From positions 107,106 to 171,105 of the forward strand of contig NZ_BPFI01000001.1 in NCBI RefSeq assembly GCF_019972135.1: a stretch of DNA of 64,000 bases. The letters are read 5' to 3'. Source of the DNA: Sulfurovum sp. TSL1. Lineage in GTDB: Bacteria; Campylobacterota; Campylobacteria; Campylobacterales; Sulfurovaceae. A program made the position numbers and the translations under genes. This document shows, in pieces, positions 32,584-36,092 of this stretch. Under the pieces are notes generated by a model. That model was not told where the DNA came from, did not search any database, and was given only the letters and a program-made list of their open reading frames with translations. Each line of letters begins with the position of its first letter. Position 1 is the first letter of the stretch.

Positions 32584-33051
32584 ATGAAAAAAATAGGTAT
32601 CGGTATAGACTACAGCAACATCTGTAAAGACTATAATACTTCCTATTTGGATCGAGATAATAAAGACCCTGCAACCACGAAATGTATGAAACAAGTACTT
32701 ACTTGGACTCAGGGTTTTTTATCTGAACTTTTAGAGCACTTTGGTTATACCATACATCATCTGCATTCTGTTACGCCAGTAAAGATAGAGGATGTCGCTT
32801 CAAAAAGATTTCTTTTTTACTCTTTGGAGAAAGAGATCACGCTGCAAAGCTATGTGATACAAAAAGCGTATGTGGAATATGGATCTTTGAGTGCCTGGGA
32901 GTTGGAAAGCGAGGAGGGCATACTAATACAGAATGAAGAAGATGGGGGAGGGATATTTCTCTATTTCAATGAAAACTCCAGTGAACATCAATGGATCCTC
33001 GATAAGCTCAAAGCGTTCTCTTTAGATGAAGTTCCCTTTCATGCAAAGTAA
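32584..33051 (+). CDS. Unknown protein coupled to the MOSC gene
   Basis: 155 residues, soluble. Notable are two early cysteines (NICKDY, TKCMKQV), an aromatic middle (YVIQKAYVEYGSLSAWELE) and a Gly/Glu-rich loop (QNEEDGGGIFLYFNEN). It follows the MOSC gene by 1 bp. Its last ~10 codons (DEVPFHAK) are copied, with changes, downstream of the first duplicated gene at 33731, marking the left edge of a tandem duplication. Function not recognised. Confidence 0.7.
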   Translation: MKKIGIGIDYSNICKDYNTSYLDRDNKDPATTKCMKQVLTWTQGFLSELLEHFGYTIHHLHSVTPVKIEDVASKRFLFYSLEKEITLQSYVIQKAYVEYGSLSAWELESEEGILIQNEEDGGGIFLYFNENSSEHQWILDKLKAFSLDEVPFHAK

Positions 33052-33730
33052 AAAAGATGCAATGGTGAGATAATATATTTATTTTTTATTATAAGTTATA
33101 ATTATTATTACCATGAAGAATTCTGCTGATAATCCACCTTTTTTAGAGAAGTTCTTATCATTTTTGTGCATACTTCTGTTTTATTATGATACAATTAAAA
33201 TAGTTGATTTGATAGATATCTCGAAGAAAAACATACTATCAGATCTTTAGGCTTTTCATTGAAAATGATCAGCAATATTACTTTAGGAGAAAATGTAATG
33301 AAAGTAATTAAAGAAAAACTGGAAGAAATTGTAGCACTGATGAACGATCCGGAAGCAACGGTATCGGAAAAAGAAGTGAAAGAGAAACTTGAATCAGTGA
33401 TGTCTCTTCTGAATAATCCTGAAAAAATTGAAATGAGCGAAAAAGAAACCAAAGAAAAATTAGAAGAGATCGTAGCACTTGTGAACAATGTGATGGTAGA
33501 CCCGGATATCGATATTGAATATTGTATACCTGATGTAGCGACAACATTAGACACTTGTGATGTTTCCGGAGATCCGTATATCTTGGTGACATATATTGTG
33601 AGTGACTATGCAAGACCGACACGTAAGATCCGTTTATCCGGTTCAAATATGCAAAATACACCAAAAGTAATAGCTGACCTGATTACTTTCTCTATTGAAC
33701 AATTTAAAAGTGAGATAGACACTGTAGAGA
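33022..33730 (+). repeat. Tandem duplication, unit 1 (~709 bp)
   Basis: The unit runs from the last codons of the preceding gene (TTTAGATGAAG, then CCCTTTCATGCAA) through a long leader and the first duplicated gene. The same series of blocks begins again at 33731. Blocks shared in order are the TTAGATGAAG junction, AATGGTGAGATAA, CTTCTGTTTTATTATGATAC, CTTTTCATTGAAAATGATCA and the gene itself. Confidence 0.85.
33190..33195 (+). promoter_or_regulatory. -10 element of duplicated gene 1
   Basis: TACAAT within the block CTTCTGTTTTATTATGATAC that is conserved in both duplication units. It implies a leader of about 95 nt containing a small conserved hairpin (TTTTC-ATT-GAAAA) before the ribosome-binding site. 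Confidence 0.45.
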
Positions 33731-33738
33731 TTAGATGA
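33298..33738 (+). CDS. Duplicated unknown protein, copy 1 (three helical repeats plus a mixed domain)
   Basis: 146 residues. Residues 1-70 are three imperfect ~24-residue acidic helical repeats: KLEEIVALMNDPEATVSEKE, KLESVMSLLNNPEKIEMSEK and KLEEIVALVNNVMVDPDIDI. The second half is a mixed alpha/beta domain (EYCIPDVATT, YILVTYIVSDYARPTRKIRL, GSNMQNTPKVIADLITFSI). AGGAGA lies 8 bp before the ATG. An ATG 13 codons upstream lies before that site and is rejected. No signal peptide. Family not recognised. It is paralogous to the gene at 34013 at ~85% identity by eye. Confidence 0.75.
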   Translation: MKVIKEKLEEIVALMNDPEATVSEKEVKEKLESVMSLLNNPEKIEMSEKETKEKLEEIVALVNNVMVDPDIDIEYCIPDVATTLDTCDVSGDPYILVTYIVSDYARPTRKIRLSGSNMQNTPKVIADLITFSIEQFKSEIDTVEIR

Positions 33739-33902
33739 AGCTCCCTTTCATGCAAGGTAAAAAAATGAAATGGTGAGATAAGATATTTCTTTATTCGTCA
33801 TCATCATTCATCTTAATCCCCTCATGAAACGTTTTGCTGATAATTCCCCTTTTTTAGAGGAATTTTTGTCATTTTTTGTCGCATACTTCTGTTTTATTAT
33901 GA

Positions 33903-33908
33903 TACAAT
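33903..33908 (+). promoter_or_regulatory. -10 element of duplicated gene 2
   Basis: TACAAT in the conserved block GTTTTATTATGATACAATTA, matching the element at 33190. Each copy therefore has its own promoter. Confidence 0.45.
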
Positions 33909-34012
33909 TATCATAAGGGGTTTGGTAGATATCCCTTAAGAAAAAGATACTATCATATCTTCATGCTTTTCATTGAAAATGATCAGCTAACTTATTTTAG
34001 GAGAAAATTGTT

Positions 34013-34453
34013 ATGAAAGAAATTAAAGAAAAATTGGAAGAAATTGTAGCACTGATGAACGATCCGGAAGCAACGGTAATGGAAAAAGAAGTGAAAGAGA
34101 AACTTGAATCAGTGATGTCTCTTCTGAATAATCCTGAAGAAATTGAAATGAATGAAAAAGAAACCAAAGCGAAACTCGAAGAGATTGTTGCACTTGTGAA
34201 TAATGTGATGGTAGACCCGGATATCGATATTGAATATTGTATACCTGATGTAGCGACAACAGCAGAAAGTTGTGATGTTACAGGAGATCCTTATATTTTA
34301 GCGACTTATGTTGTGAGCGAATACACTAGACCAACACGTAAGATACGTTTATCCGGTTCAAACATGCAAAACACACCAAGAGTGATAGCTGATCTGGTTA
34401 CTTTCTCTATTGAACAATTTAAAAGTGAGATAGACTCTGTAGAGATGGGTTAA
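34013..34453 (+). CDS. Duplicated unknown protein, copy 2
   Basis: 146 residues, the same length as copy 1, with the same three helical repeats and C-terminal domain. Most differences are conservative (for example NPEKIEMSEK versus NPEEIEMNEK; TLDTCDVSGD versus TAESCDVTGD). TAGGAGA lies upstream of the ATG. That both copies stay intact, with their own promoters, suggests both are used, perhaps for dosage or as a heteromer. Confidence 0.75.
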   Translation: MKEIKEKLEEIVALMNDPEATVMEKEVKEKLESVMSLLNNPEEIEMNEKETKAKLEEIVALVNNVMVDPDIDIEYCIPDVATTAESCDVTGDPYILATYVVSEYTRPTRKIRLSGSNMQNTPRVIADLVTFSIEQFKSEIDSVEMG

Positions 34454-34520
34454 ACCCTCTCTTGAAAGAAGATTTTATCTAGGCTAAAAAAGTTTTATCT
34501 TTAGCCTGAAAATTTACTGC

Positions 34521-35111
34521 CTATTTAACAATTTCATGGAATTGTTCATAGACCCTTTTGACGTATTTTGGTTTCAGACCTGTAGTTTTGATCTCTGCAA
34601 GCTCTTGTTTAATATGCTCCTGTGTAATGGCGATGAGATTTTCCCATCTTTTTACCAAAAAGTTTCTTATATCTGCTTCAAAATCACCGTTATACTCAGG
34701 ATATGCAGCATTTAATTTCTCTACAATATCAGCAAACTCTGTCTCTTTAATCATCTCTAACTGCTCTTTTGGATGTGTTTTTTCGACATCTACAAGGTGT
34801 GCCCAGCCAGTTTCTACTATGACCTTTAACTCTTGTGCATAATCTCTCTCTTCGTTCGGAAACTTTTGGATCAATGCTGCAGCGATATCTTTGAGTGCAT
34901 TGGAATTGACGATCTCTAACTCTTCTTCAAACCCTTTTAGGTTTGCTTCATACTCTGCTGCATCTTCATACATTTTTGCGATCTCAGCATTTTTACTGTT
35001 CACTTTATCGTTTTTTTTGGGAACAGTATTATCTTTCGCTGCATCTGCATGCGCAGCTTTAAGTTCTTCCATTTGTAATTCTAAATAGAGCTTTTCTTTC
35101 TTTTCAGCCAT
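34521..35111 (-). CDS. Helical, possibly coiled-coil protein of unknown function
   Basis: 196 residues, highly charged and almost wholly helical (LYLELQMEELKAAHADAAKD, EIAKMYEDAAEYEANLKGFE, ITQEHIKQELAEIK), without a signal peptide, membrane segment or cysteines. It is convergent with the duplicated gene. A perfect 21-bp palindrome lies 45 bp upstream of its start and could control it. Family not recognised. Confidence 0.65.
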   Translation of the reverse strand: MAEKKEKLYLELQMEELKAAHADAAKDNTVPKKNDKVNSKNAEIAKMYEDAAEYEANLKGFEEELEIVNSNALKDIAAALIQKFPNEERDYAQELKVIVETGWAHLVDVEKTHPKEQLEMIKETEFADIVEKLNAAYPEYNGDFEADIRNFLVKRWENLIAITQEHIKQELAEIKTTGLKPKYVKRVYEQFHEIVK

Positions 35112-35644: not shown

Positions 35645-35838
35645 ACTACCATATCCTTCATATATCGGATATGCTCAACAACAATAGTTGAATCTTTCTA
35701 TCATACCTCTATTACCACATGGTAAAACATAACATTGCTTACTATATATAAGTGAGAAGAGTATAACCATTAAACGATGCAGATTTCACTATTTGCTTTA
35801 TTTTATACATGACTTTTATCAGTTTTTCCTATGATTTA

Positions 35839-35893
35839 TGCAACATTTAGTAACTATTTGACTGATATCTGCAACATTTAGTAACTATTTGAC
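35839..35893. repeat. Pair of exact 24-bp direct repeats upstream of cluster 1
   Basis: TGCAACATTTAGTAACTATT followed by TGAC occurs at 35839-35862 and again, identical, at 35870-35893. Repeat start to repeat start is 31 bp, about three helical turns. It lies 230-285 bp before the first gene of oxidoreductase cluster 1, so two protein dimers could bind the same DNA face. Confidence 0.85.
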
Positions 35894-36074
35894 ATAAGTC
35901 TATCGTATAATAGGGGTCTTGTCTTCTATATTTAAATTATATTCGATACTATTAGACACAAATTCATGTTTTTCAAAGATGTGAAGGTACCTAGTTGTAC
36001 TTTCTATTTGAGAACTTTATATCTACTGATAATGAATTTTAAATGTTAAATACACTGGAATTTAAAAATGTTTT

Positions 36075-36092
36075 AATACACTTTAGTGTATT
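36075..36092. promoter_or_regulatory. 18-bp palindrome in the cluster 1 leader
   Basis: AATACAC-TTTA-GTGTATT, 33 bp upstream of the first start codon. An extra half-site (AATACAC) lies at about 36050. It could be an operator or a small hairpin in the 5' leader. Confidence 0.5.

Follow-up and report, generated by a model that had tools for sequence, protein, structure and literature searches.

A tandem duplication of a small orphan gene with its promoter, leader and the tail of its upstream neighbour in Sulfurovum sp. TSL1

Two closely similar copies of a small gene, A1 and A2, lie one behind the other in Sulfurovum sp. TSL1, which raises the question of whether the genes alone are paralogous or whether a larger segment, with the signals for its own expression, was copied. 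Bacteria are known to duplicate genes in tandem through illegitimate or short-homology joining. Here, we analyzed a stretch of 64,000 nucleotides (hereafter the window; contig NZ_BPFI01000001.1, positions 107,106 to 171,105 of the forward strand), in which an initial annotation had proposed a tandem duplication of the gene together with its promoter and the tail of the upstream gene, N155. The repeats themselves, their alignment and the existence of single-copy relatives bear this proposal out. We believe, with a probability of roughly 0.78, that one illegitimate tandem duplication of ~710 bp made a second complete A expression unit, and that both units were kept while the upstream part of unit 1 drifted.

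Two head-to-tail units and the join between them

Unit 1 and unit 2 are direct copies arranged head to tail, and each contains, in the same order, the last codons of N155, intergenic DNA, a promoter carrying TGATACAAT, a leader and a 146-codon gene (Table 1). The motif TTAGATGAAG, previously proposed to mark the junction, is found at both 33022-33031 and 33731-33740. The second unit had been drawn to 34453 and ends instead at ~34445, within the last codons of A2. N155 itself is without a Pfam or NCBIfam match. Identity between the units varies by part: the copied tail matches at 28/30 positions, the coding sequence at 392/432 (90.7%), the distal leader at 119/154 (77.3%) and the stretch from the -10 element to the ATG at 82/101 (81.2%), while the 30-nt core promoter stretch with its TACAAT box and the 23-nt leader hairpin P2 show no difference between units.

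Table 1. Positions of the duplicated units and their parts within the window
Feature	Position	Strand	Remarks
N155, upstream neighbour, 155 aa	32584..33051	+	tail copied
Unit 1 of tandem duplication	33022..33730	+	start-to-start spacing 709
Core promoter of copy 1, TGATACAAT, -10 TACAAT 33190-33195	33168..33197	+	predicted
Leader hairpin P1, unit 1	33206..33245 (33206-33215 with 33236-33245)	+	weak alone
Leader hairpin P2, unit 1	33251..33273	+	covariation, covariance model
Gene A1, 146 aa, C-terminus ...VEIR	33298..33738	+	
Unit 2 of tandem duplication	33731..34445	+	
Copied N155 tail	33731..33760	+	28/30 identical, now mostly non-coding
Core promoter of copy 2, -10 TACAAT 33903-33908	33881..33910	+	predicted
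Leader hairpin P2, unit 2	33965..33987	+	covariation, covariance model
Gene A2, 146 aa, C-terminus ...VEMG (as in G003, AR, G106, G012)	34013..34453	+	
Hairpin after A2	34480..34508	+	z -1.14, no U-run, modest stability

When extended to 34 nt, the tail copy matches at 32/34 positions, compared with 20/34 at the next best site on either strand of the whole window and best matches of 20-22 for 30 shuffled versions of the 34-mer. Likewise, base-by-base alignment of the leaders (33056-33297 against 33765-34012) scores 320, whereas the best of 200 dinucleotide-preserving shuffles reaches 121, and the leaders are therefore homologous. A reading in which paralogy is confined to the genes and the leaders resemble each other by chance could appeal to the lower identity of the leaders relative to the coding sequence; given these alignment scores and the matching tail, it has a negligible chance of being right. 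An assembly artefact is also very improbable, as 40/432 coding sites and a larger share of leader positions differ between the units, which lie inside a contig of 1.78 Mb.

The parental end points of the join can be read as CTCT-TTAGATGAAG inside N155 and GTAGAGA-TGGGTTAA at the end of A, and the new join as GTAGAGA-TTAGATGAAG. Compared in their present-day sequences, the two parental ends have at most 1 nt in common and carry no long repeats, although older homology could have eroded since. As a result of the join, A1 reads the copied N155 tail out of frame and ends in ATT AGA TGA in place of ATG GGT TAA, whereas A2 ends in M-G-stop, as do the single-copy genes in G003, AR and G106. The earlier description of the tail copy as non-coding thus holds for most of its length but not for its first 8 nt, which supply the last residues and the stop codon of A1, so that part of the copied tail is still in use. 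In addition, the hairpin found 3' of A2 is missing 3' of A1; a terminator scan returned no terminators and did not call this hairpin, and a promoter scan gave 8 matches against 7.1 expected. Because A1 lacks this downstream hairpin, messages started at A1 probably run on into A2.

These features suggest a mechanism in which a single illegitimate join, with one nucleotide or none shared, would have copied the last codons of N155, the promoter, the hairpin leader and gene A. The same join would have turned the end of A1 from MG-stop into IR-stop, with the stop taken from the copied tail, and would have left the downstream hairpin after A2 only, so that A1 transcripts probably reach A2. The locus resembles illegitimate tandem duplications in being a direct repeat of a whole transcription unit with a novel join that shares at most 1 nt. 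It differs from unstable amplifications in that A1 and A2 are fixed and diverged (91% identity in the coding sequence) and in that copy 1 owes its stop codon to the join. Further short repeats occur downstream, where a 31-bp unit is repeated once in tandem (35832-35893, copies 94% alike) in the gap that precedes the gene at 36086, and a 26-bp unit is present twice at 36034-36082, directly before the same gene.

Constraint, one-sided drift and an allele mosaic

Both gene copies have intact frames and are under purifying selection, as had been suspected from the likeness of their proteins. The pair has a dS of 0.281 and a dN of 0.065 (dN/dS 0.23), with 346 replacement against 92 synonymous sites, or ~3.8 times more replacement sites. 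When the changes are polarized with G003 alone, 11 synonymous and 10 replacement changes fall on A1 and 9 and 8 on A2, with 2 sites ambiguous. The similar constraint on both branches argues that neither copy was released.

The accompanying claim that the leaders have drifted more than the proteins is right as to the lower identity of the leaders, but nearly all of this drift belongs to unit 1. Compared with G003, AR and G106, the 59 differences upstream of the genes (33731-34012) comprise 37 assigned to unit 1, 7 to unit 2, 13 in which the units are shared with different relatives and 2 shared with none; the 40 coding differences divide into 17 for A1, 12 for A2 and 11 shared. In these counts each gap column is one change (4 of the 37 and 2 of the 7), and the gene rows of AR and G106 are without their start codon. 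The asymmetry between units is significant in the leader (p 5e-6) and not in the coding sequence (p 0.46), and the two regions differ from each other at p 0.028. We conclude that the far upstream region of unit 1 drifted. The core promoter and P2 remained unchanged despite this drift further upstream, and the leader of unit 2 stays near those of the single-copy relatives.

Relatives with a single copy are available for comparison: G003, AR (locus L025), G106 and G012 have one A gene each, in the order MOSC-like gene, N155, A, P196, GNAT, and G116 is near-identical to AR. In G354, the MOSC-like gene and N155 are followed by A, with a second, 38%-identical family member directly behind it. Comparison with G003 and AR reveals that the window is a mosaic of alleles at this locus. 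The leader of unit 2 is 91% identical to AR and 70-76% to G003 across 33731-33890 (two comparison windows), with mixed values in the next ones. The gene bodies are 91-96% identical to G003 and 71-86% to AR, with the exception of 34210-34310, where both reach 92%, and the 3' region is 86-89% identical to G003 and 65-80% to AR, so that identity switches near 33960 and 34600. Phylogenetic trees follow the same division. The gene-body tree unites A1, A2 and G003 (support 100/99) and grouping with AR/G106 is rejected (p-AU 2.2e-4), while the flank tree unites the window with AR and G106 (100/100) and grouping with G003 is rejected (p-AU 4e-5); the groups for these AU tests were picked after sight of the identity profile. 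Taken together, the two trees argue that DNA was exchanged between species at this gene, and, as far as sequence comparison goes, a G003-like allele, covering the gene bodies and 3' region (33960-34600), sits in a locus that is otherwise like that of AR/G106.

This mosaic bears on how the array arose. A G003-like A allele from another species may have recombined beside or over the resident copy, with the array made or homogenized on that occasion, and both the split between gene-body and flank trees and the switches in identity fit such an import. However, the G003-like body is present in both copies, the leader of unit 2 is resident-like, the copied tail is the locus's own, and the trees leave the direction of transfer either way, so that we regard this origin as rather unlikely. 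The initial annotation had looked to single-copy relatives for a date. Such relatives exist, but they yield no clean one: A1, A2 and G003 form a trichotomy, the copies as sisters have a p-AU of 0.37, and the dS of 0.28 between A1 and A2 is close to that between each copy and G003 (0.25 and 0.23). Dating from dS is unsafe because G003-like gene bodies sit in an AR/G106-like locus. Moreover, dS between the copies is 0.08 in the first 48 codons and ~0.4 in the remainder, which suggests gene conversion or allele exchange.

The trichotomy implies that the duplication may be as old as the allele exchange, or older. In the extreme case, it would predate the parting of the lineages of the window, G003, AR and G106, and recombination between the repeats would have returned the others to a single copy. 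The near-equal distances among A1, A2 and G003 (dS 0.23-0.28) are compatible with such an age, as is the leader of unit 2, which is nearer to AR (88%) than to unit 1 (80%). An old duplication would nevertheless need a collapse in at least three single-copy relatives; the excess of changes on unit 1's own branch (37 against 7) accounts for its divergent leader, and the AU test does not reject a tree that groups the two leaders with each other (p-AU 0.31). We consider it unlikely, slightly more so than the import of an allele, and favor a single illegitimate duplication that left both copies under constraint.

A hairpin leader and an orphan protein family

Members of the A family occur in 19 of the 78 genomes of the genus, and 17 of these 19 genomes have two members, one (69% complete) has a single member, and the window's genome alone has three. 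The two members adjoin in 11/19 of these genomes, the A1-A2 pair of the window excluded. A class-wide sample contained members in 2 of 298 genomes (the window's own and G354), and a further member is present in a Sulfurimonas single-cell genome. A 16-row alignment clearly separates the members into sequence types A and B; by eye, a further type replaces B in G012 and G101. The type B member of the window's genome lies elsewhere (L111 2216-2719; G000:C1 ~40269-40709) and has a leader like that of A. It is 68% identical to the B of AR and 88-89% identical to those of G003 and G106, another allele pattern. The frame upstream of B, at L111 675-1982, is presumably an L,D-transpeptidase.

Searches for a name for the family in Pfam, NCBIfam, PHROGs and PDB sequences returned weak and scattered matches only. 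Neither A1 nor A2 scored over a curated cut-off in Pfam or NCBIfam, 13 family domains had no significant match in PHROGs or Pfam, and a tblastn search with A2 as query had no match among phages and plasmids at E <= 0.01. The best PDB profile match was to ApeA (E 0.0095, profile positions 15-56), which we rejected as kin. We describe A as a lineage-restricted small protein that forms an orphan pair with a partner-like paralogue, B. Tentatively, both copies of A may have been retained since they raise the dose of A over that of B, its partner-like paralogue, which a single gene elsewhere encodes.

Most leaders of A, and of the separately located B, carry two hairpins, P1 and P2, usually followed by AGGAG and the start codon; P2 ends ~45-95 nt 3' of the TACAAT box. 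P2 adjoins the ribosome site, and across 19 leaders 84.2% of its cells are paired. Changes on both sides are present in 6 of its 9 pairs, a number reached by 12/500 shuffles, and the cells with both-side changes amount to 19, compared with 8.3 in shuffles (0/500) and at most 5 in slid versions; these shuffles ignore the relatedness of the leaders. Within P2, 9/19 leaders leave 11-27 unpaired and 6/19 leave 12-26 unpaired. P2 appears in the minimum-energy fold of 17/19 leaders (exceptions AR_A and G106_B), and the consensus fold of the full leader alignment (18 rows) consists of P2 alone, with 7 pairs, 4 of them changed on both sides, and a covariation term of -0.09. The length of P1 is too variable for alignment in the 18-row set, and P1 thus rests on single-sequence folds and on four B leaders. 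In the latter (with the G000_B row shortened at both ends), both-side changes affect 3 of 12 pairs, which 16/500 shuffles reach and slid versions never show. Single-sequence folds of P1 and P2 together gave z <= -3 in 11/19 leaders; the window's own leaders were weakly more stable than shuffles, at -1.44 (unit 1) and -1.85 (unit 2), and G003_A, at +0.12, was no more stable than shuffles, which speaks against a leader structure at this locus. An early folding set had comprised 21 leaders with plain letter shuffles. G105 and G047 were omitted from the later alignments and folds and L028 from one, and the leader alignments are without G039, two L026 genes, the second member of G012, and G101; G116 was left out of the leader sets because its leaders equal those of AR.

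A covariance model of P2 and the ribosome site recovered A1, A2 and B in the window's genome at E <= 1.1e-10, with the next match at 1.08. Across the 78 genomes of the genus, scanned with stricter filters at which weak matches are lost, 21 rows had E <= 3.7e-5, all 5' of family members and from 15 of the 19 family genomes. These strong rows are training rows or their duplicates and include no new leader, and four family genomes (G101, G105, G047, G039) lack a strong match. One weaker row, G031:C12 (E 5.4e-4), lies upstream of a frame read as lipoprotein-like. Rfam gave nothing credible in the window at gathering thresholds, in a separate scan of its positions 32950-34500 or in L003, L004, L006 and L013, the best E of 0.18 being to microRNA and snoRNA families far under their gathering scores. 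We give even odds to the view that the leader copied here represents a cis-acting RNA not described before, with two hairpins in succession from promoter to ribosome site, compensatory change, and a tie to the orphan A/B family of Sulfurovum and its close kin. A role of the 5' hairpins in mRNA stability or translation is slightly more likely than not.

In remote members of the third type (L017, L066), a hairpin of different sequence seems, by eye, to lie just 5' of the ribosome site. In AR (L025 2941-2991), the A frame is open upstream from an ATG, through P2; in A1 (33259-33297) it is open upstream as well, reading the hairpin in another frame, and in A2 it is not. Longer N-termini of A are thus possible in AR and A1 from the reading frames.

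It is conceivable, but we think improbable, that the A protein binds the leader and thereby regulates the translation of its own message. The strong leader matches of the genus scan lie only 5' of this family, as such autoregulation would have it. Furthermore, the short form of the protein is predicted to consist of a helix, three strands and a helix (pLDDT 81.1, pTM 0.73). Helix-strand-strand-strand-helix is the order of elements in double-stranded RNA binding domains, which we considered for this reason, and chains of such domains, together with RaiA/pY, are among the weak fold matches. However, the short-domain model had no match at E <= 0.001 in the PDB (best 0.24) or in a viral library (best 0.032), nor did the full-length model against PDB folds (best 0.42), and the best VIA-align Z scores, 6.4 and 6.7, are both to the actin capping protein CapZ and under the tool's trust level. 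In addition, all 13 family domains are acidic, with 8-12 basic and 17-21 acidic residues each, a composition that speaks against their binding RNA directly. In the full-length model (pLDDT 74.9, pTM 0.57), extra helices in front look by eye like internal copies of the first helix. In sequence, too, the N-terminal part of A (34013-34210) appears by eye to be made of ~24-residue repeats with a KEKLE.. motif, which are absent from the 100-aa short forms.

Known systems and the meaning of the locus

As an event, the duplication is well supported but ordinary, and the greater novelty lies in the leader RNA. Our literature search found no paper on tandem duplication in Sulfurovum. Similar to riboswitches and other leaders collected in Rfam, the A leader is structured, shows compensatory changes and lies ahead of a gene. 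Metabolite riboswitches differ from a leader confined to one gene family, and the A leader, unlike those elements, is without a credible Rfam match in the window and the four loci scanned and, in the genus scan, has strong matches preceding one family only. Among the 5' UTRs of C. jejuni, the TPP riboswitch is reported to be the sole metabolite riboswitch (PMC3847290). The nearest working analogue of the A leader may be vacA of Helicobacter pylori, for which a stem-loop in the 5' UTR is reported to stabilize the mRNA (PMC4843948). Both are Campylobacterota genes with a hairpin in the 5' leader, which is predicted here and whose position is judged from the TACAAT box. Unlike vacA, the A and B genes have two hairpins in most leaders and belong to an unrelated, lineage-restricted family.

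Finally, the locus offers a clean natural example of a duplication in which promoter and leader were copied with the gene and a stop codon was born at the join, and relatives that have one copy allow a comparison. Since the leader was copied with its gene as one module, the window may illustrate a step by which leader-bearing paralogues of this family arise. The leader marks a small orphan protein pair, A and B, and, if real, it would add a structured 5' element to a phylum that may have few of them.
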